From assembly GCF_019931145.1 (NCBI RefSeq), contig NZ_JAIOUV010000004.1, positions 124,001 through 188,000 of the forward strand: DNA of 64,000 nucleotides, in the 5' to 3' direction. Positions 6,979 to 21,442 of the stretch are shown here, piece by piece. Made by a program: the position numbers and the translations under genes. The notes under the pieces were generated by a model that was not told the origin of the DNA, searched no databases, and saw only the letters and a program-made list of their open reading frames with translations. This DNA is from Marinicella meishanensis (GTDB lineage Bacteria > Pseudomonadota > Gammaproteobacteria > Xanthomonadales > Marinicellaceae). The first letter of the stretch is position 1; each line of letters starts with the position of its first letter.

Positions 6979-7010
6979 CAAAAAAAACCCGCCAATCGGC
7001 GGGTTTTTTG
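6979..7010. terminator. Bidirectional rho-independent terminator
   Basis: CCCGCC-AATC-GGCGGG flanked by an A-run (6980-6987) and a T-run (7004-7009). It lies between the convergent XRE-2TM and pnp genes and can terminate both. Confidence 0.9.
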
Positions 7011-7048
7011 ATCGCTTGAATTCACTTCAAGTCTTTTTCTGATCAGCC

Positions 7049-9148
7049 TTATTCAGGCTTGGGTTCCAGGGCTTTCATGGACAAACGCACACGGCCTTGT
7101 TTGTCAACTTCCAGCACTTTCACTTTGACCACTTCACCTTCTTTGATTTTGTCGGTGACCTTGGCCACGCGCTCATGACAAATCTCAGAAATGTGCACCA
7201 TGCCGTCTTGACCCGGTAACAGGTTGACAAAGGCGCCAAAATCCATGATTTTCACCACTTTGCCTTCGTAGGTGGCACCCACTTCAACTTCAGCGGTCAA
7301 ATCTTCGATGCGTTTCTTGGCCAAGTCGCTGTCTTCCTGGTTCACCGCCGCAATGGTCACGGTGCCATCGTCGTTGATGTCGATGGTGGTATTGGTTTCT
7401 TCGGTCAAGGCACGGATGGTGGCGCCGCCTTTACCGATGATGTCACGGATCTTGTCTGGGTTGACCTTGATGGTCTCCAAACGCGGGGCATAAGCCGACA
7501 TCTCAGCGCGTGGCTCTGAAATCACTTTGTTCATTTCACCCAAGATGAATTGGCGGCCAGCGGTTGCTTGACGCAAGGCAATTTCCATGATTTCACGGGT
7601 GATGCCTTGGATTTTGATGTCCATTTGCAAAGCGGTGATGGCACCTTCGGTACCGGCCACTTTGAAGTCCATGTCACCCAAATGATCTTCGTCACCCAGG
7701 ATGTCAGACAACACGGCAAAATCATCGCCTTCTTTGATCAACCCCATGGCGATACCGGCCACCGGCTCTTTTAATGGGATACCGGCGTCCATCATCGACA
7801 AGGACGAACCACAGACCGAAGCCATTGAGCTCGAACCATTGGATTCGGTGATTTCAGACACGATGCGTTTCACATATGGAAATTCTTCTTCATTCGGCAC
7901 CACCGCCATCAAGCCCCGTTTGGCCAAACGGCCATGGCCGATTTCACGGCGTTTGGGACCACTCATGAAACCGGCTTCACCGACACAGAATGGTGGGAAG
8001 TTGTAGTGGAACATGAAATCGTCTTTGCTCTCACCTTCGATGCCGTCGATCAATTGGGCATCACGACCGGTGCCCAAAGTGGTGGCCACGATGGCTTGGG
8101 TTTCACCGCGGGTGAACAAGGCCGAACCATGGACCCGTGGCAAAATGCCCACTTCCACCGAAATGGGACGCACTTGGGTCGGATCCCGACCGTCGATGCG
8201 GGGTGCACCCGAAATGATTTTTTGACGCACGTGGTCTTTTTCCAGCTTGCCGATCAGTTCCGCCACTTCTTTGGGGTTGTGCTCAGGCTCATCTTGTCCT
8301 TCGGGACAAAAATGAGCCATGACTTTGCTGCGCATGGCATCCAAGGCCGCATAGCGGTCTTCTTTGACTTGGTTGGCAAAAGCCGCTTCGATGTCAGCAC
8401 CAAATTCTTTTTGGATGGCATCCAACAGGCTGTCATTGGTCGGTGCCACTTCCCAGTCCCAAGCCGGTTTACCGTGCTCGGCGGCGAATTCTTTGATCGC
8501 TTCAATCACCACTTGCATTTGCTCATGACCGTAGTTCACCGCACCCAGCATCACGTCTTCGCTCAGCAGGTCGGCTTCCGATTCCACCATCAACACGGCT
8601 TGATCGGTACCCGCCACCACCAAATCCAATTTGGAGGTTTCCAGTTCTTCCAGTGAAGGGTTCAACAAGTACTCACCGTCTTGGTAACCAATGCGGGCCG
8701 CGCCAATCGGGCCAGCAAACGGGATGCCAGACAGCGCCAAAGCCGCAGACGCACCGATCATGGCGGGCACATCGGCATCGATGTCTTTGCTGAAAGACAT
8801 CACTTGGGCAATCACTTGCACTTCATTCTTGAAACCTTTGGGGAACAAAGGTCTGATCGGGCGATCGATCAAACGACAAATCAAGACTTCCTTTTCAGTG
8901 GGTCGGCCTTCGCGTTTGAAAAAGCCGCCAGGAATGGCCCCGGCCGCGTAGAATTTTTCTTGATAATTCACGGTCAAGGGGAAGAAGCTGGCATCCGGGT
9001 TGGCTTCTTTCTTGCCGACCACGGTCACCAACAACATGGTGTCGCCCATGGATACTTTCACTGCACCGGTGGCTTGGCGGGCGATTTGTCCCGTTTCCAG
9101 AGTCACGGTGTGCTTGCCGTATTGAAATTGTTTTACTTGTTTATTCAC
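7049..9148 (-). CDS. pnp: Polynucleotide phosphorylase
   Basis: 699 residues, a normal length for PNPase. Two RNase PH domains are present; the second carries the catalytic aspartates in [18 protein letters not shown]. After them come a KH domain ([16 protein letters not shown], about residues 555-575) and an S1 domain ([20 protein letters not shown], about 625-660). It is a 3'-5' phosphorolytic exoribonuclease of the RNA degradosome. It lies downstream of rpsO, as in Escherichia coli, separated by a terminator and a second hairpin in its leader. PNPase is commonly autoregulated through such a leader hairpin; that is inferred here. Confidence 0.98.
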
Positions 9149-9198
9149 TGATTATTTTCCTGACCTTTGATGGGTCTGTTATTTTCTCTGCTTTCCGA

Positions 9199-9223
9199 CT
9201 GCCTGTTCCCTATGAGCAGGCAG
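9199..9223 (-). promoter_or_regulatory. Hairpin in pnp leader, possible RNase III/PNPase autoregulatory site
   Basis: A perfect 7-bp stem (CTGCCTG/CAGGCAG) with an 11-nt loop lies between the rpsO terminator and pnp. In E. coli the equivalent leader hairpin is cut by RNase III and mediates pnp autoregulation. Function here is inferred from position only. Confidence 0.35.
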
Positions 9224-9224
9224 G

Positions 9225-9252
9225 TAAAAAAAAACCCGCGGATGCGGGTTTT
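9225..9252 (-). terminator. Rho-independent terminator after rpsO
   Basis: Stem CCCGC/GCGGG with a GGAT loop, followed on the minus strand by a run of nine T. It is about 15 nt beyond the rpsO stop and should attenuate readthrough into pnp. Confidence 0.85.
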
Positions 9253-9268
9253 CTTTTGACTGACGTCA

Positions 9269-9535
9269 TTATCTTCGTAAGCCCAAACGTTGGATCAGGT
9301 TTTGATACCGATCGGCGTCTTTGCGCTTGGTGTAGGCCAACAATTTACGACGCTGGTTGATCAATTTGATCAAACCGCGGCGCGAATGCTTGTCTTTTTT
9401 ATGGGTTTTGAAGTGCTCAGTCAAGTTGCTGATGCGGGCAGTCAATAAAGCCACTTGCACTTCTGGAGAACCGGTGTCATTTTCACTGGTTTTGTATTCT
9501 TTGATGATTTCTTGTCTTTGTTCAACTGTAATCAT
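9269..9535 (-). CDS. rpsO: 30S ribosomal protein S15
   Basis: 88 residues, the usual length of uS15, with the conserved core [15 protein letters not shown], the [11 protein letters not shown] loop that binds 16S rRNA helix 22, and the C-terminal [12 protein letters not shown]. It lies immediately upstream of pnp, as in most gammaproteobacteria. A good promoter is present about 95 nt upstream, leaving a leader that could carry S15 autoregulation; I could not confirm a pseudoknot. Confidence 0.98.
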
Positions 9536-9630
9536 GTCATCTCTCGTTGAAGGGGTCCCATCGCTGGTATTTGACCCGTTTAAAAAACCAAACTGCCGTC
9601 AGACGCTCGCACAGCTCAGATGTGGGGCGT

Positions 9631-9659
9631 ATTCTACTGGTTTTATGCAGCAATAACAA
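9631..9659 (-). promoter_or_regulatory. Promoter of rpsO-pnp
   Basis: On the minus strand TTGTTA (9654-9659), a 17-nt spacer and TAGAAT (9631-9636) make a near-ideal sigma70 promoter. The same TAGAAT box is used before the initiator tRNA. Confidence 0.75.
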
Positions 9660-9885
9660 CGTTTTTTGGGGTTTTTCGGGGTCACCATCAGGACCTGATG
9701 TTGGCCATCAAGTTGGCTTGAGTGAACAAACTCAGACAGCCTTTGTTTTGGGTCATTTTTCGACCACCCTGTGATGCTGGCAAACGGCATTCTACCGTAT
9801 GATCGCAATGGACCTCACCGTTCGTTGATCAGGCCTTAATCGATCAATTGTTGACTGCCCAATGGCGATGATCACTGCTGCCGAC
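9660..9885. other. Intergenic region upstream of rpsO
   Basis: This 226-nt stretch separates the J-protein module from the rpsO promoter. It holds a small inverted repeat (CATCAG-GAC-CTGATG) near 9688-9702 and a TGAGT/ACTCA pair near 9720-9740, neither followed by a T-run on the minus strand. No convincing coding region is seen. Confidence 0.4.
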
Positions 9886-11049
9886 TCACTTGATGGCCAC
9901 CGTGCCTGAAACCCATTCGTGCAACCAGTGCCCCATTTTATAACGCAGAAACAGGTTGATCATGACCACCAAATAAGCCCACAAGGCCAACAACCAGAAC
10001 GGTGCAGTCGGCCACAACAAGAAGCCATAAATGGGCGACATGGAGGCCTGAAAGACCGCAACCCGAATCCACATCATGTTCAGGGCCGGGTGGTTGCCGA
10101 ACAAATCATAAACTTTGATGTCGTTGATGTGTTGGCCGGGTGATTTGCGCCAGCGGGACAGTTGCATGCCACTCATGACCAGCATCAACAGCACACAGGT
10201 GATCATTCGGTAATCACCCTGAAATATGACACTGATCTTGTGTTCAGGCATCATCAGAGCGGCCAACAAAATACTGGCCGCCAAAGCCACCACCACATCA
10301 AACCACCAGGCCAACAAACGCTGCCAGCCAGTGGCCGGGGCATGGTCATGGCCACCGGTTTGCTGCCATTCGATCAGGTGGTACACATGTTGTACATAGG
10401 CCGGGGCAAAGCGCCGCTCAAAATGCACCCAATTGGCTTCCCAATCCATCACCTCATTGCAGTAGTTGACCACTTGGGCGTCAAACGCGGCCAAATTCCC
10501 CGCCTGCATTTGAAAATGATTGTATTCGACAATGCGCTTGAATATTTCCTCGGACAAGGCCTCTCGAGCCGCCAGATCACTGATGTCATGATACTGTTCC
10601 AGGAACTGCCAATGGGTCAGGTCGCGCTTGATGGCGATGGGGGCGAAAGCGGTGGCCTTGAATTGTTTGAGGATGTCGGTCACCACTTGCCAGGAAGCTT
10701 CATCGGCCAACAGCACTTGGTCAACCGAAGGCGATTCTGTCGAGGTGCTTGTCTCAGCAGTTGTCTCAGCGGTTGGTGCCGTTGTTGGCGCCGGTTCGGG
10801 ATCATGTACTGAGGGCTCTGGTTCCTGTGCCTGGTCGGCAGCAAGGGGCGTTGGCGGAGTGTCAGCCCAGGCAGGTTCTTGCCAATCAGCCGCGTTCCAT
10901 TTCAATGCTGCCTGATACGCCTCATTGACCCGCTGAAAACCCTCCGGATCGCTGTCCGGTCGGTGCTGTCGCAACAACCGGGCATAGGCCTTTTTGATGG
11001 CTTTGCGGTCATCGGTTTCAGTTATTTCGAGTACATCCCATGGATACAT
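9886..11049 (-). CDS. J-domain protein with C-terminal RDD membrane domain (DjlB/DjlC-like), copy 1
   Basis: 387 residues. Residues 2-50 are a J-domain-like helix bundle (YPWDVLEITETDDRKAIKKA, then YARLLRQHRPDSDPEGF) in which the canonical HPD tripeptide reads H-R-P-D. A Pro/Thr/Glu-rich linker (about 55-110) leads to a helical domain with WQFLEQYHDISDL. The C-terminal RDD-type membrane domain (about 245-387) has hydrophobic segments and SPGQHINDIKVYD. J-proteins stimulate a partner Hsp70; the adjacent HscC-like Hsp70 is the obvious partner, as E. coli HscC is with DjlB/DjlC. It follows copy 2 by 31 bp in the same operon. Its first 110 bp are almost identical to copy 2. Confidence 0.85.
   Translation of the reverse strand: MYPWDVLEITETDDRKAIKKAYARLLRQHRPDSDPEGFQRVNEAYQAALKWNAADWQEPAWADTPPTPLAADQAQEPEPSVHDPEPAPTTAPTAETTAETSTSTESPSVDQVLLADEASWQVVTDILKQFKATAFAPIAIKRDLTHWQFLEQYHDISDLAAREALSEEIFKRIVEYNHFQMQAGNLAAFDAQVVNYCNEVMDWEANWVHFERRFAPAYVQHVYHLIEWQQTGGHDHAPATGWQRLLAWWFDVVVALAASILLAALMMPEHKISVIFQGDYRMITCVLLMLVMSGMQLSRWRKSPGQHINDIKVYDLFGNHPALNMMWIRVAVFQASMSPIYGFLLWPTAPFWLLALWAYLVVMINLFLRYKMGHWLHEWVSGTVAIK
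10910..11016. repeat. 107-bp near-identical segment, copy A (J-domain coding)
   Basis: Matches 12027-12133 at 105 of 107 positions by direct comparison. It encodes the J-domain from TDDRKAIKK to EAYQA. The flanking sequence is not conserved at the DNA level between the two genes. Confidence 0.95.
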
Positions 11050-11080
11050 CTGGCTTCCTAATTTCAGTTTAAATGATGCT

Positions 11081-12166
11081 TCAATTTGATTCTATTTGTG
11101 CCACTGTGACACCAGTCAGCCAATCATGTAGTGGCTTGTCTTTGAGCACCCATATGACCAATGAGCTGACCATCAACACCAGGGAAAGGATGAACCAAAA
11201 ATTCATATCAATATTTCCATTTACCATTGATACATAAACACACCATGCTGATCCATGAAACAACATCAATCGAATCAAAATTCTGAATCTACTTGCCAAC
11301 TGTTCCCCGTTCGCGGTTAACCTAAATCCAAGTGTATATTTGCCAAGAGAAGTTTTGTACTTGGAAAGTTCAGTGAGCCCTGTCATCAAACTGAAAATAA
11401 TCAAAAAGACTGGTATGACATAACCGGGGTAATCATCAGGCATTTTTAAGAAAATGAACAAGGTGAAAAGAGCAGCTGCTCCCATATCTAACGAAAAAGC
11501 GGCCAACTTGTAAAAATTATGTTTTTTAGGAATCTGATTCGACTCAGATTGAACATAAGTCCGATCTATTGTGTTTTCGAAGTATGTAGACGGATATAAT
11601 TGATTCAACTCTTGCCAATTACGATCCCAATCAAAAATCTGGTTCATCAAAATCAGAACATCACGATCAATCAACAATACACCATTTGTTTTAAGTTCAT
11701 TGTGGTTTAATTCGGCAACTTTTTTAAACATCTCTTTGGATACTTGTTCTTTAAAGCTTAACTCCAATATGTCATGAAACCCATGCAAAAATTGCCAGTT
11801 TTGCAGATCATTTCGTATCTTTAATTTTGTCTTGATCAATTCATCTGTCTTGGTAAATAAATCTTCTGCCACACTATGACAATCAACCTGAAACTTTGAC
11901 TCAGCCCCGAGCGAATTGGTAGCGTCATTTGATTTTTTGGTCTGAAATTCTTGATGGTCATTCGAAATGGTTTCAGAGTCCAACTCGACCTGTTGACCAT
12001 TATTCTGTGTTATCAATATCAACGCCGCCTGATACGCCTCATTGACCCGCTTAAAACCCTCCGGATCGCTGTCCGGTCGGTGCTGTCGCAACAACCGGGC
12101 ATAGGCTTTTTTGATGGCTTTGCGGTCATCGGTGGGCGCCAAACCCAACACATCCCAGGGGAACAT
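11081..12166 (-). CDS. J-domain protein with C-terminal RDD membrane domain, copy 2 (AT-rich body)
   Basis: 361 residues from the ATG at 12166, which overlaps the hscC stop as TGATG. An upstream GTG is open but unlikely. It has the same plan as copy 1: a J-like domain (DDRKAIKKAYARLLRQHRPD), a spacer, a helical domain (LQNWQFLHGFHDILEL, then FDWDRNWQELN) and an RDD membrane domain (TSLGKYTLGFRLTANGEQ, then KDKPLHDWLTGVTV). The J-domain DNA has the local composition and nearly equals copy 1, but from about 12015 down to 11081 the gene is visibly AT-richer with different codon use. This suggests a transferred or anciently diverged body joined to a host-like 5' end. Confidence 0.85.
   Translation of the reverse strand: MFPWDVLGLAPTDDRKAIKKAYARLLRQHRPDSDPEGFKRVNEAYQAALILITQNNGQQVELDSETISNDHQEFQTKKSNDATNSLGAESKFQVDCHSVAEDLFTKTDELIKTKLKIRNDLQNWQFLHGFHDILELSFKEQVSKEMFKKVAELNHNELKTNGVLLIDRDVLILMNQIFDWDRNWQELNQLYPSTYFENTIDRTYVQSESNQIPKKHNFYKLAAFSLDMGAAALFTLFIFLKMPDDYPGYVIPVFLIIFSLMTGLTELSKYKTSLGKYTLGFRLTANGEQLASRFRILIRLMLFHGSAWCVYVSMVNGNIDMNFWFILSLVLMVSSLVIWVLKDKPLHDWLTGVTVAQIESN
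12027..12133. repeat. 107-bp near-identical segment, copy B (J-domain coding)
   Basis: Partner of 10910-11016, with only two differences over 107 bp. It lies at the 5' end of the AT-rich J-protein gene. Confidence 0.95.
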
Positions 12167-13860
12167 CAGAACCACCGGTTGGCTTCGAATTGGGCCAATT
12201 GTTCCCGCATGTGGGCCATGCCTTGCTCGATTTGTTTGGGGTCTTGAGAGGCCAACACGTCATTGAAACGCTGCACCAACTGATTGATCGCTTCGCGCTC
12301 CTCTTGGATGCTGTTTTCATAGATGGTTTCGGCCCGCATCATCAATTCCTGCACTGCCTCGCTTTCTCTGGGGTGAAACTTCAGCCCTTGCAGTTTTTTG
12401 CGTGACTTGGCGATGTCTGCCGCACTGAGTTCTTGCGGTGAATTGTTGATCAGCAGGTTTTTGCTGTCGCCGGTTGACAACACTTTGGCGTCCACTTCCA
12501 AGATGCCATTGACGTCATAACTGATGCGCAACTCGACCTGCTCCTGCCCTTGCGGCCCGGGTGGTACAGTGACTTCAAACTCACCCAACAAGATGTTGTT
12601 TTTGACCAGGCGACTTTCACCTTGGTAGATTTTCATGTTGAGTTTTTTCTGGTTATCCGTGGCCGTTTCATAGATGTTGTAGCGGCTGGCCGGGACCACC
12701 GTGTTGCGCTCAATGATCGGACTGAACAACAAACTGTCGTCATACACACTGTGGTTAACCACCGCGGTGCCCAGGGTGTATGGACACACATCGGTCAACA
12801 CCACATCTTGTAAGTCCTCGTTGCGGGCTTTCAAGCCGGCTTGAATCGCCGCCCCATGGGCTATGGTCAAATCCGGATCGATGTCGGTGCGTGGCATTTT
12901 TTTGAACAAGCGGGTGACCAAAGACCGCACGAAAGACATCCGCGAGGCCCCACCAACCAAAATGATTTCATCCATTTCATCTGGTCGCAGACGGGCATCT
13001 TTCAAACACAGCTCAATGGACTTGATCATTTTTTGCAACAACGGCTTGCAGGCTTGTTCGAACGTGTCTTTCTCGATCGTCACTGTGGGAGTGGGCACCG
13101 ACAGAAAAGGTTCGATCTGCCAATTCTGTTTGGCACTTTGTTTTTTCAAATCTTCCATGCGGGTGTACAACAAGTGGCGGTCGTTGGCCGACAGCTTTGG
13201 CGGCTTGATGCCGGCTTTGTCGGCGTAAATGTCAACCAACACCTGCAGAAAATCTTCGCCACCCAAATAATTGTCACCACCCGACGCTTTGACCTCCAAT
13301 ATGTCATCAAAATATTCCATGATCGACACATCAAAAGTGCCACCACCCAAATCAATGATCATGAAGTCGGTGTATTCGGGTTTGGTTTGTAAGCCATAGG
13401 CAATGGCGGCGGCGGTGGGTTCGTTGATCAGTTTTTCCACTTTCAGATCGATCATGGCGGCGGCTTGCATGGTGGCTTTGCGTTGCACCCCATTGAAATA
13501 GGCCGGTACCGAAATGATTGCTTCGGTGACTGTTTGGCCTGTGTGTTTCTCTGCGTCTTCAACCAATTTACGCAACACCATGGAGGACAGTTCCACGGGT
13601 GAGTATTGCTGTCGGTGGATGCGAAACACCTTGTCGCTGCCCATGTACCGTTTGAAATTGGCCACCGATTCTTTGGGATACAACAGCGAGCGGGTTTTGG
13701 CGGTCTTGCCAATGTGCAAGCGGCCGTCTTTTTCCACGCTGATGCAAGAAGGGGTGAGGTATTCAGAAAAATTGTTGGGTATCAGTTTGGCTGCACCGTC
13801 CTGGTACACGGCACACACGCTGTTGGTGGTGCCCAAATCAATGCCGATCAGCATGGTCAT
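12166..13860 (-). CDS. hscC: Hsp70-family chaperone, HscC-like
   Basis: 564 residues. It has the actin-fold ATPase signatures LIGIDLGTTNSVCAVYQD at the N-terminus, DFMIIDLGGGTFDVSI near residue 165, and ILVGGASRMSFVR near 300, then a substrate-binding domain and a short C-terminal helix. DnaK is about 638 residues; the shorter length matches HscC (556 in E. coli). The start has a GGAG ribosome-binding site. It begins only 10 bp after truB and ends in a TGATG stop-start overlap with a J-protein gene, so it is translated from the truB operon or nearby. E. coli HscC works with the membrane J-proteins DjlB/DjlC; a similar trio is inferred here. Confidence 0.9.
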   Translation of the reverse strand: MTMLIGIDLGTTNSVCAVYQDGAAKLIPNNFSEYLTPSCISVEKDGRLHIGKTAKTRSLLYPKESVANFKRYMGSDKVFRIHRQQYSPVELSSMVLRKLVEDAEKHTGQTVTEAIISVPAYFNGVQRKATMQAAAMIDLKVEKLINEPTAAAIAYGLQTKPEYTDFMIIDLGGGTFDVSIMEYFDDILEVKASGGDNYLGGEDFLQVLVDIYADKAGIKPPKLSANDRHLLYTRMEDLKKQSAKQNWQIEPFLSVPTPTVTIEKDTFEQACKPLLQKMIKSIELCLKDARLRPDEMDEIILVGGASRMSFVRSLVTRLFKKMPRTDIDPDLTIAHGAAIQAGLKARNEDLQDVVLTDVCPYTLGTAVVNHSVYDDSLLFSPIIERNTVVPASRYNIYETATDNQKKLNMKIYQGESRLVKNNILLGEFEVTVPPGPQGQEQVELRISYDVNGILEVDAKVLSTGDSKNLLINNSPQELSAADIAKSRKKLQGLKFHPRESEAVQELMMRAETIYENSIQEEREAINQLVQRFNDVLASQDPKQIEQGMAHMREQLAQFEANRWF

Positions 13861-13870
13861 TTCACTCCTG

Positions 13871-14788
13871 TCAAACTGCCTTTTGACTGTAAGATTTGTA
13901 AAACAGTTTTTTTACCTTCAATTGATGGTGTTGCACTTCACCCAGTCCCAAAAACCGGTCAGTCCAATCAAACATGCGGTAAATTCCTTGCTCGATAGTA
14001 TAACTGATTTTTTTGCCATGGATCAGGTCCTGGGTTTGGCTTTCACTCAAATCCAATCGGGGATACTCAACCAAGGCGGTTTCCAATGGCATCAACACCT
14101 CGCTCAAAGGCCGTTGTTGGATGGTTGCTAGGTCCAGCATGTGTTCAGCGGTGAAGATCCCGGTTTGGGTGCGGTGCAAGGCCGACATGTGGGCCACGGT
14201 GCCCAATTGTGCGGCGAAATCTTCCAGCAGCGTGCGGATGTAGGTGCCCTTGGACACTTTGATTTCAAATTCCAGGTATTCGGATGTATGGGCCAACAGG
14301 GTGAAATGATGCACCGTCACGGGACGGGCTGGGCGTTCGACGGTTTTGCCTTGGCGAGCCAGGTCATACAAGCGCTGACCTTGGTGGTGCAAGGCCGAAT
14401 ACATCGGCGGAATTTGTTCAATGTCGCCGGTCAGTGCCGCACAAGCCTGTTCGATTTCCTCGCTTGTCAGCGTCGGTACTGGGGCGGTTTCGATCACTTG
14501 GCCGGTGGCATCCCCGGTGTCGGTTTGGCTGCCCAACACACAACGGGCGATGTAGGTTTTGTCGGCATTGATCAACAGGTTGGCGACTTTGGTGGCGTCA
14601 CCAAAACAACAGGGCAGCAACCCGGTGGCCATGGGGTCCAGGTTACCGGTGTGGCCGGCTTTTTTGGCTTGGATGGCATGCCGCAACTTCTGCATGGCTT
14701 GATTGGAGCTCATGCCGGTCGCTTTGTTCAGCAAGATGATGCCGTGGATGTCGCGGTAGTGGCGTTTGGCAGAGGTTCGCTGGCCCAT
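13871..14788 (-). CDS. truB: tRNA pseudouridine(55) synthase
   Basis: 305 residues. It has the TruB motif GHTGNLDPMATGLLP near residue 45, with the catalytic Asp, and SKGTYIRTL in the middle. It converts U55 of the T-loop to pseudouridine in almost all tRNAs. It lies 10 bp after rbfA in the standard infB-rbfA-truB order. In most gammaproteobacteria rpsO follows truB; here the hscC/J-protein module comes between. Confidence 0.97.
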   Translation of the reverse strand: MGQRTSAKRHYRDIHGIILLNKATGMSSNQAMQKLRHAIQAKKAGHTGNLDPMATGLLPCCFGDATKVANLLINADKTYIARCVLGSQTDTGDATGQVIETAPVPTLTSEEIEQACAALTGDIEQIPPMYSALHHQGQRLYDLARQGKTVERPARPVTVHHFTLLAHTSEYLEFEIKVSKGTYIRTLLEDFAAQLGTVAHMSALHRTQTGIFTAEHMLDLATIQQRPLSEVLMPLETALVEYPRLDLSESQTQDLIHGKKISYTIEQGIYRMFDWTDRFLGLGEVQHHQLKVKKLFYKSYSQKAV

Positions 14789-14798
14789 CAGCGCAGAC

Positions 14799-15176
14799 TC
14801 AGGCGTCTTCTTCGGTCAAGTTGGGGTCGGTGGCGCGGGCCTTTTGAATCAGGTGTTCCAATTTGCGACCATATTCCAAAGAAGCGTCGTACTTGAAGCG
14901 CAATTCCGGTACTTTGCGGGTGTTCAGTTGTTGGGCCATGACCCGGCGCAATTGTTTGGCATTCAAACTCAGGGTTTGGATCGCCAGCTTCTCTTGTGAT
15001 GGGTCCAGGGTGTTGATGTACACCGTGGCCACCGACAAATCGCGGGTCACCTCAACATCTGAGATGGTGATGAACGACGTGTCCTCATCAGGCAAATCTT
15101 GATGTATGGCCGTGGCCAGGGTGCGGCGTAAATGCGCCGCGACCCGGTCACTGCGTTTGAAATCTCTGTGTCCCAT
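14799..15176 (-). CDS. rbfA: 30S ribosome-binding factor A
   Basis: 125 residues with a KH-like fold. It shows the usual N-terminal SDRVAAHLRRTLATAIHQD and the DLSVATVYI strand, then VPELRFKYDASLEYG. It is a late maturation factor for the 30S subunit and acts on 16S rRNA. It lies between infB (24 bp upstream) and truB (10 bp downstream). Confidence 0.96.
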   Translation of the reverse strand: MGHRDFKRSDRVAAHLRRTLATAIHQDLPDEDTSFITISDVEVTRDLSVATVYINTLDPSQEKLAIQTLSLNAKQLRRVMAQQLNTRKVPELRFKYDASLEYGRKLEHLIQKARATDPNLTEEDA

Positions 15177-15200
15177 AATCTCGCTGTCTTGTTATAGACT

Positions 15201-17882
15201 TTATTCCAAAGTCCTTTGGACTTCAACCCGCTCGTAACATTCGATCTGATCACCGGATTGCACGTCTTTGTATTGTTTCACCCCGATACCACATTCGGTA
15301 CCCGACTTCACTTCATTGACGTCGTCTTTGTGGCGGCGCAAGGATTCCAATTCACCCTCAAAAATCACCACATTGTCACGCAACACACGGATCGGATTGT
15401 CGCGGCGGACCACCCCTTCTGACACCAAGCAACCAGCAATGGTGCCGAACTTGGATGAGCGGAACACGTCTTTGACATCGGCGATGCCAATGATTTCTTC
15501 TTTGACCTCGGTGCCCAAAATACCGGTCACCGATTGTTTGACCTGATCAATCGCTTCATAAATGATGCTGAAGTAATGCAGGTCCAAATCACTTTCTTTG
15601 ATGAATTCACGGGCGGCTTTGTCGGCACGCACGTTGAAGCCGATGATGATGGCACTGGAGGCCGCCGCCAATTGGGCATCGGCATTGGTGATGCCACCGA
15701 CACCAGCAGAAATCACTTTCACATCGACGTCATCATTGGAAATGTTCTCCAACGATTCACGCAAGGCTTCCACCGAACCTTGCACATCGGCCTTGACCAA
15801 CAAATTGACGTTGAGTTTTTCTTCCTGACCCATTTGCGACATCAGGTTTTCCAACTTCGCGGCTTGTTGGCGCTTCAGGCGCATTTCGCGTTCTTGTTCG
15901 CGGTGCTCTTGGGCCGCTTCCCGGGCGTGTTTCTTGTTCTTAACCACCAGGAATTCATCACCGGCTATCGGCACCCCGGACAAGCCCAGCACCACCGCCG
16001 GGATCGAAGGTCCGGCGTCATCAATTTCATGACCGCTTTCATCAATCAGGCTGCGAATGCGGCCAAATTGTTCACCACACAAAATCATGTCACCTTTTTT
16101 CAAGGTGCCGTTTTTAACCAGTACGGTGGCCACCGGACCACGGCCTTTGTCCAATGAAGACTCCACCACAATGCCTGAGGCACTGGAGTCTTTCACGGCT
16201 TTCAGCTCCATCACTTCGGCTTGCAAAGAAATGGCGTCCAGCAGGTCATCAATGCCTTGGCCGGTCAGGGCCGACACTTCAATGAATTGCACGTCACCGC
16301 CCCAGTCTTCTGGCACCACTTCGTGGCTGGCCAGGTCTTGTTTGACTTTGTCGACATTGGCTTCGGGCAAATCAATCTTATTCACCGCCACAATCAAGGG
16401 CACCCCTGCGGCTTTGGCGTGCTCAATGCCTTCTTGAGTTTGTGGCATCACACCGTCGTTGGCTGCCACCACCAGAATCACGATGTCGGTTACTTGGGCA
16501 CCGCGGGCACGCATCGCGGTGAAGGCCGCGTGACCTGGGGTGTCAATGAAGGAAATCACCCCTTTGTCGGTGGTCACGTGGTAAGCACCGATGTGTTGGG
16601 TGATGCCACCGGCTTCTTTGTCGGTGACTTTGGTGTCTCTGATGTAATCCAACAAAGAGGTTTTGCCGTGATCCACGTGGCCCATGACGGTCACCACAGG
16701 CGGTCTGGTTTCGGCGTTCTCTTCGTCGATTTCTTGTTCGGATTCTTGTTTCAGGATTTCGGCTTTGGACTGCACCACCGCTTCTTCGGCTTTGTGGCCC
16801 AATTCTTCCACCACCAAAATCGCGGTGTCTTGATCCAAGGGTTGGTTGATGGTCACCATCATGCCCATTTGCATCAACACTTTGATCACGTCACTGGCTT
16901 TGATTGACAACTCTTTGGCCAAATCCGCCACCGTGATGTTTTCTGGAATGGCCACGGTTTTGACCACTGGAGCGGCCGGCATTTGGAAGCCGTGCTCTCC
17001 TTTGCCTGCAGACACCGGACGCATGGCTTTGCGCTCACCTCGGCCGTGGGAACTGCCAGACACGTGCAGTTGTTTGCGGCCATAGCGCGTGTTGGAACGT
17101 TTGTCGCCACTGCGGTCTGCACCGCGGCCTTTGTCTCGTTTGTTGTCGGCGGCACCGGCTTTCTCGCGGCGTTTGCGGTTGGCCCGTTCTGAGATGGCTT
17201 TTTGCACCTGTTGGTTGACCAACTCATCATGTCGCCGCTTGCGCTCAGCCTCTTCGTCCAGTTTTTGCTTGGGAGCAGCTGTCTTTTCTGCTGCTGCAGC
17301 CGCTTCCTCACTGTCTTCGGCGGCGTCTGCCTCAGTCACATCGGCTTCGGTGGCCGCTTCGACTTCTGCTGCTGTTTCGGCTTCGGCGGCAGCCGCTTCG
17401 GCTTCGGCAGCAGCCGCTTGCTCCGCGGCTTGTTCTGCTTTCTGCTTGGCCGCTGCTTCGGCTTCATTCTTGGCTTGTTCTTCGGCTTCTAATTGACGCT
17501 TGCGCTCGGCCAAAGCTTCCTGTGCGGCTTGGCGTTCCTTTTCAATTTCAGCCAGTTCTGACTGGCTGGGACCAACGCTGCGTTTTTTCTTTTTGACTTC
17601 GATGTTGATGCTTTTGGTCTTGGCCGGTCCGCCGCCACTACTGGCCACCCGCAAAACTTCTTTTGACTTGCGCTTGAGCACCACTTTTTTGCGTGGGGAC
17701 AGGCTTTTTTTCTCTTTGCCATGGGCACCACGCAAGAATTCCAACAGCTTCACTTTGGATTCATTGCTGATGGTGTCATCTTCTGACTTGGCAGGGATGC
17801 CTGCACTGGCCAGTTGTTCCATCAGCTTTTCAGTGGTAATCCCGAGGACTCCAGCCAATTGTTTTACGGTTACATCAGACAT
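15201..17882 (-). CDS. infB: Translation initiation factor IF-2
   Basis: 893 residues. An IF2_N domain ([20 protein letters not shown]) at the N-terminus is followed by a long Ala/Glu/Lys-rich coiled stretch (about 90-240) and a second IF2_N domain ([15 protein letters not shown], about 310). The G domain carries [10 protein letters not shown] (G1), DTPGHAAF (G3) and NKIDLP (G4), and IF2 domains II-IV complete the protein. The GTPase brings initiator tRNA to the 30S subunit. It lies 18 bp downstream of nusA. Internal starts giving shorter IF2 forms are known in E. coli; I did not identify one here. Confidence 0.98.
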
Positions 17883-17900
17883 GTTGTCTCCTGTTGTGTT

Positions 17901-19382
17901 TTATTCGAACCAATGTTTTCTGGCTTCCATGATCAACGCCGAAGCATCTTCTTCATCCATTTCGACCAAGTCCACCAACTCATCGGTGGCCAGATCAGCC
18001 AGGTCATCACGGGTTCTGATGCCTTGCTCTGCCAATGTGTACGCTAATTTATCATTCATCAGCTCCAAACCCAACATGTCATCGGCGGGTTTTTTGTCTT
18101 CCAGCTTCTCTTCATTGGCAATCATTTGGGTCAGCAACGCGTCGCGGGCCCGGCCACGCAACTCTTCCACCAACTCCTCATCAAAACCTTCGATGTTGAG
18201 CAACTCAGACTCATCCACATAAGCAATTTCTTCAATCGATGAAAAGCCTTCCTGCACCAGCAGGATGGCCATGTCTTCATCGACATCCAATTTTTCTTCG
18301 TATTCTTTGACGAACTCCATCGCCTCGGCTTCGTTCTTCTCTTCGGCTTGCGCGGTGGTCAGGACATTGATTTCCCAACCGGTCAGTTCACTGGCCAAGC
18401 GCACGTTTTGGCCGCCCCGGCCAATCGCTTGCGACAATTGGGATTCGGCCACGGCCACATCAATGGTGTTCTTTTCCTCATCCACCACAATCGACTCAAT
18501 TTCAGCCGGTGACATGGCGTTGATGATGAACTGTGCGGTGTTCTCATCCCACAAGATGATGTCAATGCGCTCACCACCCAATTCATTGGCCACCGACATC
18601 ACGCGGGAACCACGCATGCCGACACAAGCGCCGATGGGGTCCAGTTTGCGGTCGTGAGAGAACACGGCAATCTTGGCCCGGTGACCCGGGTCACGGGCGG
18701 CACCCTTGATTTCCAGGAAACCCTGAGAAATTTCAGGCACTTCCACTTTGAACAATTCAATCATGAATTCCGGCGATTTGCGCGACAAGGTCAAAATCGG
18801 TCCGCGGTTCAAACGGTTGACTTCCACCAACAAGCCTTTGAGGCGGTCACCGCGTTTCACTTTTTCGCGGGGGATGCCATATTCACGGGGCACGATGGCT
18901 TCGATGCCGCTGCCCACATCAATGAATACATGGCCACGTTCGACCCGCTTGACGATGCCTGAAAGCACCTCACCCACGCGGTCTTCAAACATTTCCACCA
19001 CTTGCTCACGTTCGGCTTCACGCACTTTTTGCAAGATCACTTGTTTGGCCGTTTGTGCCGCGATGCGGCCGAATTCCACCGACTCCATTTGTTCTTCAAT
19101 GACGTCACCAAGTTCCAGTTCAGGATCTTCTTTATGGGCCATTTCCAAGGTCAGTTGGCGGTCTTCTGATTCAAATTCCTCGTCTTCCACCACAGTCCAA
19201 CGACGGTAAGAATCGTATTCACCGGTGGTGCGATCGATGTCTACCCGCACGTCCATGTCTTTCATGTGCTTTTTGCGGGTGGCCGAAGCCAAAGCCAGTT
19301 CAATGGCCTCAAAAATCACGTCTCGACTGACGCCTTTCTCGTTAGACAAGGCTTCTGCCACATACAGAATTTCTCTACTCAT
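17901..19382 (-). CDS. nusA: Transcription termination/antitermination factor NusA
   Basis: 493 residues. The order is an N-terminal RNAP-binding domain, S1 (RVERGHVFIDVGSGIEAIVP), KH1 (DPIGACVGMRGSRV), KH2 (AIGRGGQNVRLASELTG) and two acidic repeats at the C-terminus (SIEEIAYVDESELLNIEGFD and a second copy), as in gammaproteobacteria. Its ATG overlaps the rimP stop by 4 nt (ATGA). Confidence 0.98.
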   Translation of the reverse strand: MSREILYVAEALSNEKGVSRDVIFEAIELALASATRKKHMKDMDVRVDIDRTTGEYDSYRRWTVVEDEEFESEDRQLTLEMAHKEDPELELGDVIEEQMESVEFGRIAAQTAKQVILQKVREAEREQVVEMFEDRVGEVLSGIVKRVERGHVFIDVGSGIEAIVPREYGIPREKVKRGDRLKGLLVEVNRLNRGPILTLSRKSPEFMIELFKVEVPEISQGFLEIKGAARDPGHRAKIAVFSHDRKLDPIGACVGMRGSRVMSVANELGGERIDIILWDENTAQFIINAMSPAEIESIVVDEEKNTIDVAVAESQLSQAIGRGGQNVRLASELTGWEINVLTTAQAEEKNEAEAMEFVKEYEEKLDVDEDMAILLVQEGFSSIEEIAYVDESELLNIEGFDEELVEELRGRARDALLTQMIANEEKLEDKKPADDMLGLELMNDKLAYTLAEQGIRTRDDLADLATDELVDLVEMDEEDASALIMEARKHWFE

Positions 19383-19843
19383 TTCTTCACTCCAGCCGTG
19401 GTTGGTTTCAACCGTGCTTTCATAACATTACTCATTGCAAAACCATATTCAGTGACTTCATTGGCCACCACAATTTCATCGGCACTGACCGATTGTATGA
19501 TGCCTTTGATGTTGCGGGCACCAGCCACCGGTTGGGCCAGCTTGACCTGCACCTTTTCACCGATGTATTGGGCATATTGATCCCGTGTGAACAACACCCG
19601 GTCAATGCCCGGTGAGGACACTTCCAACACATAGGCACTTTTGATGGGGTCTTCCACTTCCAACAAGCCAGAAATTTCGTGGCTGCAGGTGGCACAATCA
19701 TCGACCCCCACCCCTTGCTCGTGATCAATGTACACGCGCAAGATGGCATTGTTCTTTTGTGGCAGGTATTCCAGCCCCCAAAAAACAAATCCCAGGTCTT
19801 CGATCACCGGTTGGATCAATTCTGTTAACTGTTGTTCTTTCAT
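19379..19843 (-). CDS. rimP: Ribosome maturation factor RimP
   Basis: 154 residues with the two-domain RimP fold. The N-terminal domain contains GLEYLPQKNNAILRVYID and VDDCATCSHEISGLL; YVLEVSSPGIDRVL marks the domain boundary, and a small SH3-like domain follows. It is required for 30S assembly. It is the first protein gene of the operon, about 150 nt after the initiator tRNA and its terminator, and overlaps nusA. Confidence 0.96.
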   Translation of the reverse strand: MKEQQLTELIQPVIEDLGFVFWGLEYLPQKNNAILRVYIDHEQGVGVDDCATCSHEISGLLEVEDPIKSAYVLEVSSPGIDRVLFTRDQYAQYIGEKVQVKLAQPVAGARNIKGIIQSVSADEIVVANEVTEYGFAMSNVMKARLKPTTAGVKK

Positions 19844-19935
19844 CCAGTTTACTGTGGTGTTGGTTACGTTGTGATGAACTCAGGGAGGTGAATTGCAGAC
19901 CGGATTGTCGCCTCACCAATCAATGAAATTCAGCA

Positions 19936-19960
19936 ACAAAAAAGGCTCCACTGGGAGCCT
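19936..19960 (-). terminator. Terminator/attenuator after initiator tRNA
   Basis: On the minus strand AGGCTCC-loop-GGAGCCT is followed by a T-run (19938-19943). It sits between the tRNA and rimP and probably reduces readthrough into the operon. Confidence 0.8.
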
Positions 19961-19994
19961 GACTGTTTGATCGTTCTACTGGCGATCATTCAAT

Positions 19995-20071
<77 letters not shown>

Positions 20072-20086
20072 TCATCAAGATGGCAT

Positions 20087-20114
20087 ATTCTACTATATAT
20101 TTTTGTTTTTGCAA
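20087..20114 (-). promoter_or_regulatory. Promoter of the initiator tRNA/rimP operon
   Basis: TTGCAA (20109-20114), a 16-nt AT-rich spacer and TAGAAT (20087-20092) on the minus strand, about 15 nt before the tRNA 5' end. The -10 is identical to that of rpsO. Confidence 0.7.
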
Positions 20115-20176
20115 CCGTTAAACTGTGGAAAGTTGCCATGGTTGTTGCCGCGGTCGCCAGACCTGGCTTGGGTGCC

Positions 20177-21442
20177 TTATTTTTCAGCCGCTGCAGGCCG
20201 GCTGGACTCGGTCTGGTTGGCCATTTGTGCCACCCGTCCGACGGTCAGGCCCTGCACGATGATACTGAACAACACCACCGCATAAGTGGCAGCGATCAAA
20301 GGATCGCGATGTGGACCGGGCGGTAAGGACAACACCAGCGCGACTGAGATACCGCCCCTGAGGCCACCCCAAGTGAGTATTTTCACCACGTGTGGTGGGT
20401 AGGTGTTTTTCATGCGCAACAAACTGATCGGCAAACCGACGCTGATGAAACGGGCGATGACCACCAACGGAATGATCAACAGGGCACTGTACAAATAGCT
20501 GGGCAAAAAGTGAATGATCAACACCTCCATGCCGATCAACAAGAACAACACCGCATTGAGCACCTCATCGACCAACTCCCAAAAGGTGTCCAAGCGCTCC
20601 CGGGTCTGCGCACTCATGGCCAGGCGCCGCCCCTGGTTACCGATCATCAAGCCTGCCACCACGATGGCGATGGGGCCGGACAAATGCCAATGCATGGCCA
20701 AGGCATAGCCACCGGTGACCATGGCCATGGTGATCAACACCTCAATCTGGTAACTGTCGATTGATTTCAGCATCCAATAACCGGCGTAACCCAACAACAA
20801 GCCAAACAAGGCACCACCCACCGCTTCTTGCAAAAACAACAAGCCAACGCCCGACACAGTGGCTTCAGACTGGCCCGTGGCGACGCCCAATACCGCGATG
20901 AACAACACCACCGCCACGCCGTCATTGAATAAGGATTCGCCGGTGATTTTGACTTCAATGGCTTTGGGGGCGCCGACTTTTTTCAGGATGCCCATCACGG
21001 CAATCGGATCGGTCGGCGAAATCAACACGCCAAACACCAAACAATAGATATAAGGAATGTCGATGCCAAACAACTGGAACACGTAATAGCTGACCACGCT
21101 GACAATCACCGAAGACATGATCACACCCAAAGTGGCCAGGGTGGCGATGGTGTCTTTCATGGCCGCCAAGCGGTTCAAGTTGACATGCAAGGCGCCGGCA
21201 AACAACAGAAAGCTGAGCATGCCCTTCATCACCGTGTCATCGAACTCCACCTGCGCCAGCATCGCTTCGGCCTGGTCCGAGTCAACCCAGCCCAATTGAT
21301 TCAACAACAACAAAAACAAGGACATCACCAAACCAATCAACATGATACCAATGCCATTGGGCAAGCCCACAAAGCGGTGGTTGAAGTAGGCGAACACAGC
21401 CGCCAGAGACAGCAGAATGGCAATCAGGTCATATAAGCTCAT
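20177..21442 (-). CDS. Na+/H+ antiporter, CPA1 (NhaP-like) family
   Basis: 421 residues with about 12 hydrophobic helices. It carries the CPA1 signature SLFNDGVAVVLFIAVLG near residue 168 and FGVLISPTDPIAVMGIL near 136, with the conserved Asp pair of the ion-binding site. It exchanges Na+ or K+ for H+ at the inner membrane. No C-terminal cytosolic regulatory domain of note is present. An AAGGA ribosome-binding site precedes the ATG. It is likely monocistronic; the next minus-strand element is the initiator tRNA promoter. Confidence 0.92.
   Translation of the reverse strand: MSLYDLIAILLSLAAVFAYFNHRFVGLPNGIGIMLIGLVMSLFLLLLNQLGWVDSDQAEAMLAQVEFDDTVMKGMLSFLLFAGALHVNLNRLAAMKDTIATLATLGVIMSSVIVSVVSYYVFQLFGIDIPYIYCLVFGVLISPTDPIAVMGILKKVGAPKAIEVKITGESLFNDGVAVVLFIAVLGVATGQSEATVSGVGLLFLQEAVGGALFGLLLGYAGYWMLKSIDSYQIEVLITMAMVTGGYALAMHWHLSGPIAIVVAGLMIGNQGRRLAMSAQTRERLDTFWELVDEVLNAVLFLLIGMEVLIIHFLPSYLYSALLIIPLVVIARFISVGLPISLLRMKNTYPPHVVKILTWGGLRGGISVALVLSLPPGPHRDPLIAATYAVVLFSIIVQGLTVGRVAQMANQTESSRPAAAEK

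Follow-up and report, generated by a model that had tools for sequence, protein, structure and literature searches.

We analysed a 64-kb stretch of DNA from Marinicella meishanensis (the window, 64,000 nucleotides; its genome is G000, while other G numbers denote compared genomes and L numbers compared loci) in which three genes, hscC for an Hsp70 chaperone and two for J-proteins, here called J1 and J2, lie between truB and rpsO. The trio is probably an HscC chaperone operon that has lodged at the truB-rpsO site and is inherited and exchanged as one unit, its J-domain staying constant while the membrane tails change. Systems of this kind are already known (HscC-Djl); the non-HPD motif and the pattern of a constant plug with changing tails go further. 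In the mechanism that we propose, the two J-proteins, anchored in the inner membrane, would bring HscC to it and there set off the ATPase of HscC; presumably each has clients of its own.

The hscC gene (12166-13860, minus strand) encodes a protein of 564 aa that matches HSP70 (PF00012) at E 1.7e-126. In an alignment its identity is 42% with E. coli HscC and 39-50% with the other five HscCs from outside the family. Hallmarks of the HscC subfamily, taken from sections of PMC8215388, are a length of 550-580 aa, deletion of DnaK positions 76-101, deletion of the D211 loop and absence of the GrpE signature at 290-295. Biochemically, the subfamily is marked by independence from GrpE and rapid release of ADP. 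The length falls in this range and 2 of the 26 DnaK positions 76-101 are present. DnaK positions 208, 209 and 211 are gapped in 75/75 rows of an HscC alignment that includes a few loci twice, and four of the six GrpE signature columns were filled (residues SVPT) in a quick alignment. Judged by its length and the two deletions the module's Hsp70 is of the HscC type. Together with the J-domain and RDD matches described below, these features support a sequence-only reading of the window in which an HscC system with membrane J-proteins was placed between truB and rpsO. A defence system was considered and rejected, the sole PADLOC match at E ≤ 0.01 being that of HscC to a candidate model (24.8 bits). 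On plasmids, HscC was present in 34 of 72,556 records at E ≤ 1e-100, each with less than 60% identity.

HscC and this type of J-protein occur in the same genomes. Among 398 genomes of Marinicella's order, which we take to be Xanthomonadales and which holds Dyella, HscC was found in 99 (E ≤ 1e-140, three candidates scored per genome), nine of them from Marinicella's family, and the J type was found in the identical set of 99 at E ≤ 1e-11, a threshold chosen after the list was seen. Weaker J hits (1.8e-10 to 9.7e-9) came from 15 genomes without HscC, and the three that were read are ordinary HPD J-proteins. For 99/101 hscC genes a J-domain lies at most 300 nt downstream on the same strand, the two exceptions being a contig end (G009) and a broken hscC (G021). 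In G019 (L042:5774-7104), at the site occupied by the module in G023, a 24-aa remnant of hscC adjoins a J gene that is open but has an unrecognisable motif region; here loss of the Hsp70 goes with a change of the J partner. HscC is sparse elsewhere (8/369 genomes from the class and 21/398 from the phylum, some genomes being common to the samples), and outside the order the hscC-J arrangement varies. At L183-L185 a short J gene that lacks a membrane segment lies upstream; the J gene of L168 likewise has no membrane segment, and at L174-L176 the J gene is convergent to hscC. Very large HscC-linked J-proteins, of about 880-920 aa, were seen at L174, L175, L176, L177 and L179.

Both J1 (11081-12166, minus strand, 361 aa) and J2 (9886-11049, minus strand, 387 aa) score over the Pfam cut-off for DnaJ (PF00226), and residues 1-54 of the J-protein model superpose on the J-domain of 5nro (Z 7.7, rmsd 2.1 over 54 residues). 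J2 consists of an N-terminal J-domain followed by a helical middle part and then by an RDD membrane domain; J1 resembles it in architecture, with a J-domain, a low-GC membrane tail and a weaker RDD match. The earlier statement that the J-proteins carry RDD domains holds for J2, which reaches 35.0 bits against PF06271 (cut-off 24.1), and falls slightly short for J1, at 22.8 bits. Neither a zinc finger nor a G/F region was recognised in J1 or J2 by the Pfam scan. The two proteins agree with the DjlB/DjlC type in that their genes adjoin hscC and an RDD membrane domain is present, and both carry RPD in place of the HPD of J-domain proteins.

In G000 the J-domain blocks of J1 (12027-12133, minus strand) and J2 (10910-11016, minus strand), defined by alignment and a permutation test, are identical at 105/107 nt. 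Outside the J-domain, J1 and J2 share 19-23% protein identity within a genome. The longest identical J1-J2 runs were 81 nt in G013, 54 nt in G000 and 32 nt in G015. Between Marinicella genomes J-domain identity was mostly 60-77%, and 82-88% for G007 with G009 and G013. Codons for the same residue were identical in J1 and J2 at 34/40 positions in G000, 34/41 in G013 and 24/36 in G015, and between genomes at 34-60% (G000 vs the others) and 53-70% (G013 vs G015). When the longest shared runs of variable sites were ranked over 36 pairs, G013, G000 and G015 took ranks 1, 2 and 4, with permutation values of 0/5000, 0.0018 and 0.0008, respectively. Among the between-genome pairs listed, J2 of G007 and G013 took rank 3 (0.0064), followed by values of 0.0156 for G007-G009 and 0.0288 for the J1 genes of G000 and G015. 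The J row of G044 was left out of the later J comparisons, and J2 of G031 is cut by a contig end. Thus the likeness is clear in two Marinicella genomes (G000 and G013) and partial in G015. In the sister genus, J-domain identity within a genome (76-83%) was about the same as between genomes (75-81%). Eight tandem J pairs from outside the family had 61-76% J-domain nucleotide identity; J-domain blocks were looked at there only for djlB/djlC.

The J1 tail (11081-12018, minus strand) has a GC content of 36.7%, vs 58% in the J1 J-domain and 53% in the window (z -5.1), and is the lowest-GC stretch of the window; the lowest 938-nt stretch outside the J1 region has 45.0%. We infer that this tail may be of foreign origin. 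Scans of ten J-proteins gave one RDD match (L073) and two matches below their cut-offs, one to DUF805 (L175) and one to DUF2105, the rest showing no known tail. The likeness of J1 and J2 might be due to a recent tandem duplication followed by replacement of the tail from a low-GC donor, rather than to gene conversion, and the low GC of the J1 tail, with its shift near the edge of the J-domain, would fit such a history. We regard it as possible but rather doubtful, since in G000 J1 and J2 are strongly different over the first 27 nt past the Pro-Trp codons that they share, the borders of the blocks in G013 and G015 differ from those in G000, as patchwise conversion would have it, and two tandem J genes are already present in the sister genus. 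We read the pattern as one in which recombination between tandem genes would, in some genomes, keep the J-domain alike as a constant docking part, while the tails diverge or are replaced. In the tandem J genes nature has recorded how a single Hsp70 may come by new addresses at the membrane. A literature search found no relevant paper on gene conversion of J-domain or Hsp40 genes.

The replacement of HPD extends well beyond Marinicella. We collected 82 HscC-linked J-domain hits with a score of at least 45, a set that contains one spurious second alignment (L073) and some repeats; Marinicella together with its sister genus contributed 15 of them, and loci outside the family contributed 67. The outside loci number 61 (L046, L047, L071-L073, L075 and L131-L185, with L074 left out; L071 and L145 are one locus and some genomes occur twice), of which three lacked a J hit: L071 and L145, where the J frame has a stop, and L162. 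The triplet was RPD in 43 of the 82 hits, RPE in 8, HPE in 6, KPD in 6, PPE in 3, KPE in 2, some other triplet in 14 and HPD in none, so that 65/82 have a basic-Pro-acidic triplet. A canonical HPD J-domain at L181 scored 29, under the cut. In the portions of a 2026 review that bear on the motif (PMC13254874), replacements of HPD such as HPN or QPD are described as abolishing stimulation, and only HPE seems to be tolerated; other variants are held to be presumably nonfunctional, their meaning enigmatic. E. coli DjlC, which is inserted in the membrane, stimulates HscC according to sections of PMC8215388. The DjlC triplet is HPE. Our survey extends the reviews in that HPE is a minority form and RPD the commonest among HscC-linked J-domains, and the literature search found no paper on an RPD variant of the HPD motif in J-domains.

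On the chaperone side, the DnaK positions R167, N170, T173 and D393, which contact the J-domain, are largely kept. Of the 75 HscC rows, 63 have R and 10 have K at position 167, 72 retain N170, and all 75 retain T173 and D393; at position 159, 52/75 rows have Glu rather than Arg. Instead of triggering ATP hydrolysis, the J-proteins might be inactive J-like scaffolds whose only role is to tether HscC or clients to the membrane, and both the finding of HPD in 0/82 hits and the view, in the cited part of PMC13254874, that variants other than HPE are presumably nonfunctional are in keeping with this. We nevertheless think it unlikely, given that the basic-Pro-acidic pattern persists in most hits, that HscC retains the four contact positions, that DjlC with its HPE stimulates HscC (PMC8215388, in part), that HscC and the J type co-occur exactly, and that in G019, with hscC reduced to a remnant, the J gene is open while its motif region is unrecognisable. 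Tentatively, we suggest that HscC-class Hsp70s may use a J-domain code of their own, basic-Pro-acidic and mostly RPD, paired with the lost acidic loop at 208-211. The J-domain would then be a plug whose uniformity is maintained by recombination, and the membrane tails swapped cassettes (RDD, DUF805-like, single anchors) that redeploy one Hsp70 to new membrane clients, the RDD tail, with a predicted fold nearest to that of the Pex2/10/12 retro-translocon, perhaps acting as a membrane conduit. HPD is regarded as the core of every working J-domain. Because the partners lack it while HscC largely keeps the motif-receiving positions, the HscC class, with HPD in 0/82 hits, offers a direct biochemical test of its necessity.

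The truB-rpsO place is real but a local lodging. HscC is present in 6/18 Marinicella genomes, the other five HscCs being 68-70% identical to that of G000, and in five of the six (G000, G003, G007, G009 and G015) hscC comes directly after truB; truB, module and rpsO share one contig only in G000 and G003. In G013 rpsO is next to the module, but truB is 19.5 kb away from it, with QueF, SMC and transporter genes recognised there by eye. Ten of the 18 genomes have an empty truB-rpsO junction of 146-533 bp, and two cannot be judged (G005, where neither gene was found, and G014, with a truB fragment and no rpsO). There are two J genes in G000, G013 and G015 and one in G003 and G007; in G009, where contig ends cut the view, a complete J gene was seen along with the tail of a second one. 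The 533-bp junction of G016 was considered as a remnant of the module and rejected, on the basis of blastn, which gave the shared rpsO upstream region and chance-level hits, and of the tblastx matches listed.

Outside the genus the module is found elsewhere. In the sister genus, where two tandem J genes exist, it stands at two other places, in G021 and G023 (neighbours by eye: a CoaE side; an acyltransferase and a DEAD-helicase), and the contig of G031 shows the module alone. None of the 61 loci outside the family has truB, rbfA or rpsO near HscC (tblastn, E ≤ 1e-4, about 6.5 kb a side and less at contig ends). This synteny survey, with the ten empty junctions, bears out the view that the gene order of the window is unusual and not the normal one in the order. 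A conserved truB-rpsO place for the module was rejected on the same grounds, and the earlier premise that truB-rpsO order is itself conserved is weakened by G019, G035 and G040, in which the two genes are far apart and the module is absent. The Marinicella lodging would be the space from the truB stop codon to the rpsO promoter, and an insert there would leave both genes intact. Nothing relevant linking HscC with truB was found in the literature search. Other cargo is gathered at the slot as well: G009 (L040:1899-11978) and in part G007 (L050) have more large genes between J2 and rpsO, by eye a 1213-aa winged-helix protein, a RAYT-like transposase (G009), a secreted protein of about 1200 aa and a 496-aa protein. 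In G018, from another genus of the family (L054, 2322-5359), about 3 kb with oxidoreductase-like and GGDEF-like genes, assigned by eye, separate truB and rpsO.

In G000 the first hscC ATG lies 10 bp past the truB stop, and the gap (13861-13870, minus strand) contains an AGGAG ribosome-binding site; a second ATG, 6 nt further in, fits the starts of related HscCs better. The hscC stop and J1 start overlap in TGATG and J1 and J2 are 31 bp apart, all as first described. An isolating promoter and terminator between truB and hscC were looked for in G000; a scan of that strand found no site resembling either, and 10 bp are too few to hold a promoter. No sigma-32-like site (three mismatches allowed) was found upstream of hscC in G000, and two poor ones lie within truB in G009. 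Contig 25 of G015 has a 15-bp gap like that of G000. By eye, the longer truB-hscC gaps of G003, G007, G009 and contig 64 of G015 contain TG-N-TATAAAT, of which there are three distinct versions, so at those four junctions hscC is probably served by a separate promoter. In G000, hscC would very probably be transcribed with the translation operon and perhaps be translationally coupled; in most of the relatives read, hscC seems to use a promoter of its own. Co-transcription with the translation genes, likely in G000, is therefore not a general property.

The proposal that the arrangement serves co-expression with translation factors is unsupported: the promoter-like box stands in four of the five other junctions read, the module of G013 lies far from truB and that of the sister genus is elsewhere. 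Recruitment of the trio into the translation operon, such that a membrane Hsp70 is made in step with translation factors and the place is functional, draws on the short Shine-Dalgarno-bearing gap of G000 with no promoter- or terminator-like site, the similar junction on contig 25 and the position right after truB in 5/18 Marinicella genomes, but is decidedly unlikely in view of the ten empty junctions, the TATAAAT boxes, the G013 module that no longer touches truB and the count of 0/61 outside the family.

The history of the module differs from that of its hosts. In the rpoB tree module-bearing genomes stand beside module-less ones, e.g. G003 with G016 (support 100) and G007 with G006 (87). 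Host trees unite G000 with G003 and G007 and keep G013 separate (support 99 in a five-gene tree; 88 in the rpoB tree, a grouping that does not include G009). In the hscC tree, by contrast, G000 falls outside G003, G007, G009, G013 and contig 64 of G015, which is the G015 row of that tree (support 99; 96/98 in a second tree), and the grouping {G000,G003,G007,G009} was rejected for hscC by the AU test (p 0.0073). The G015 bin has two truB-hscC junctions (contigs 25 and 64) and two rpoB genes, of which one is identical to the rpoB of G014, and so mixes two strains. The simplest account would be that the module was lost several times and exchanged at least once at this one slot, possibly by recombination via the flanking genes. 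This conflict between hscC and host trees, together with the promoter-like boxes in 4/5 junctions, favours a lodged and exchanged operon over a function tied to translation.

Several points weigh against the account of an exchanged operon with a constant, working J-domain. The group used in the AU test was chosen with the hscC tree already in view, and the five genes of one host tree come from this same genomic region. Both host trees have several poorly supported nodes, e.g. the one joining G000 and G017 in rpoB, with a support of 22. Neither an integrase nor transfer machinery was identified at the slot. The within-genome codon count of G015 (24/36) is no higher than one between-genome value (21/30) and gives no support for homogenisation. 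Finally, since they lack HPD, the J-domains might fail to stimulate the ATPase.

The closest known system is HscC with DjlB/DjlC of E. coli, which has a 556-aa Hsp70 with the same deletions and two linked J-proteins with a membrane segment and HPD replaced. There, however, djlC neighbours hscC in convergent orientation, DUF1266 genes lie next to the djl genes, the anchor is single and C-terminal and the triplet is HPE, whereas Marinicella has an hscC-J-J operon with multi-pass RDD tails and RPD at truB-rpsO. The hscC-J operons of the same order are similar in having a J-domain 5-174 nt downstream of hscC, a non-HPD motif and mostly membrane tails, but occupy other locations, and RDD was found in 0/6 J-proteins scanned from the order outside the family. 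With DnaK/DnaJ the module shares the Hsp70-J principle and, largely, R167/N170/T173/D393; it differs in that HscC lacks DnaK 76-101 and 208/209/211 and its J partner lacks HPD. In Sec63/BiP and Pam18/mtHsp70 a membrane J-protein recruits a soluble Hsp70. It is this principle that likens them to the Marinicella trio, the translocon link being no part of the likeness.

The RDD part of J2 (9889-10356) gave a predicted model with a pLDDT of 90.6. The first three Foldseek hits of this model were three chains of 7t92 (Pex2/Pex10/Pex12; probability 0.98-1.00, E 0.017-0.12), and no match at E ≤ 0.001 was obtained with J2 or the RDD part alone. VIA-align against 7t92 gave Z 11.4 and rmsd 3.9 over 153 residues, the next entry having Z 3.9, although helical bundles may reach such Z values through arrangement alone. 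The predicted likeness of RDD to the Pex2/Pex10/Pex12 retro-translocon is a lead. The term 'RDD family' was not found among the literature matches listed.

The genes around the module, named by recognising their translations, all lie on the minus strand in the order previously given, tRNA-Met (19995-20071), rimP (19379-19843), nusA (17901-19382), infB (15201-17882), rbfA (14799-15176), truB (13871-14788, the upstream flank of the slot), hscC, J1, J2, rpsO (9269-9535, the downstream flank) and pnp (7049-9148). That rpsO has its own promoter, another part of the sequence-only reading, stood up. The predicted promoter (9631-9659, minus strand) comes from a scan in which the number of such sites across the region is at chance level; its -10 box, TAGAAT followed by ACGC, recurs in 14/14 of the further Marinicella upstream regions that were aligned, whether the module is present or not, and is missing from the outgroup G020. 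An Rfam scan of 7000-20500 at the gathering threshold matched solely the tRNA. Between rpsO and pnp, at 9231-9252, a strong hairpin between T runs is a likely terminator or processing site.

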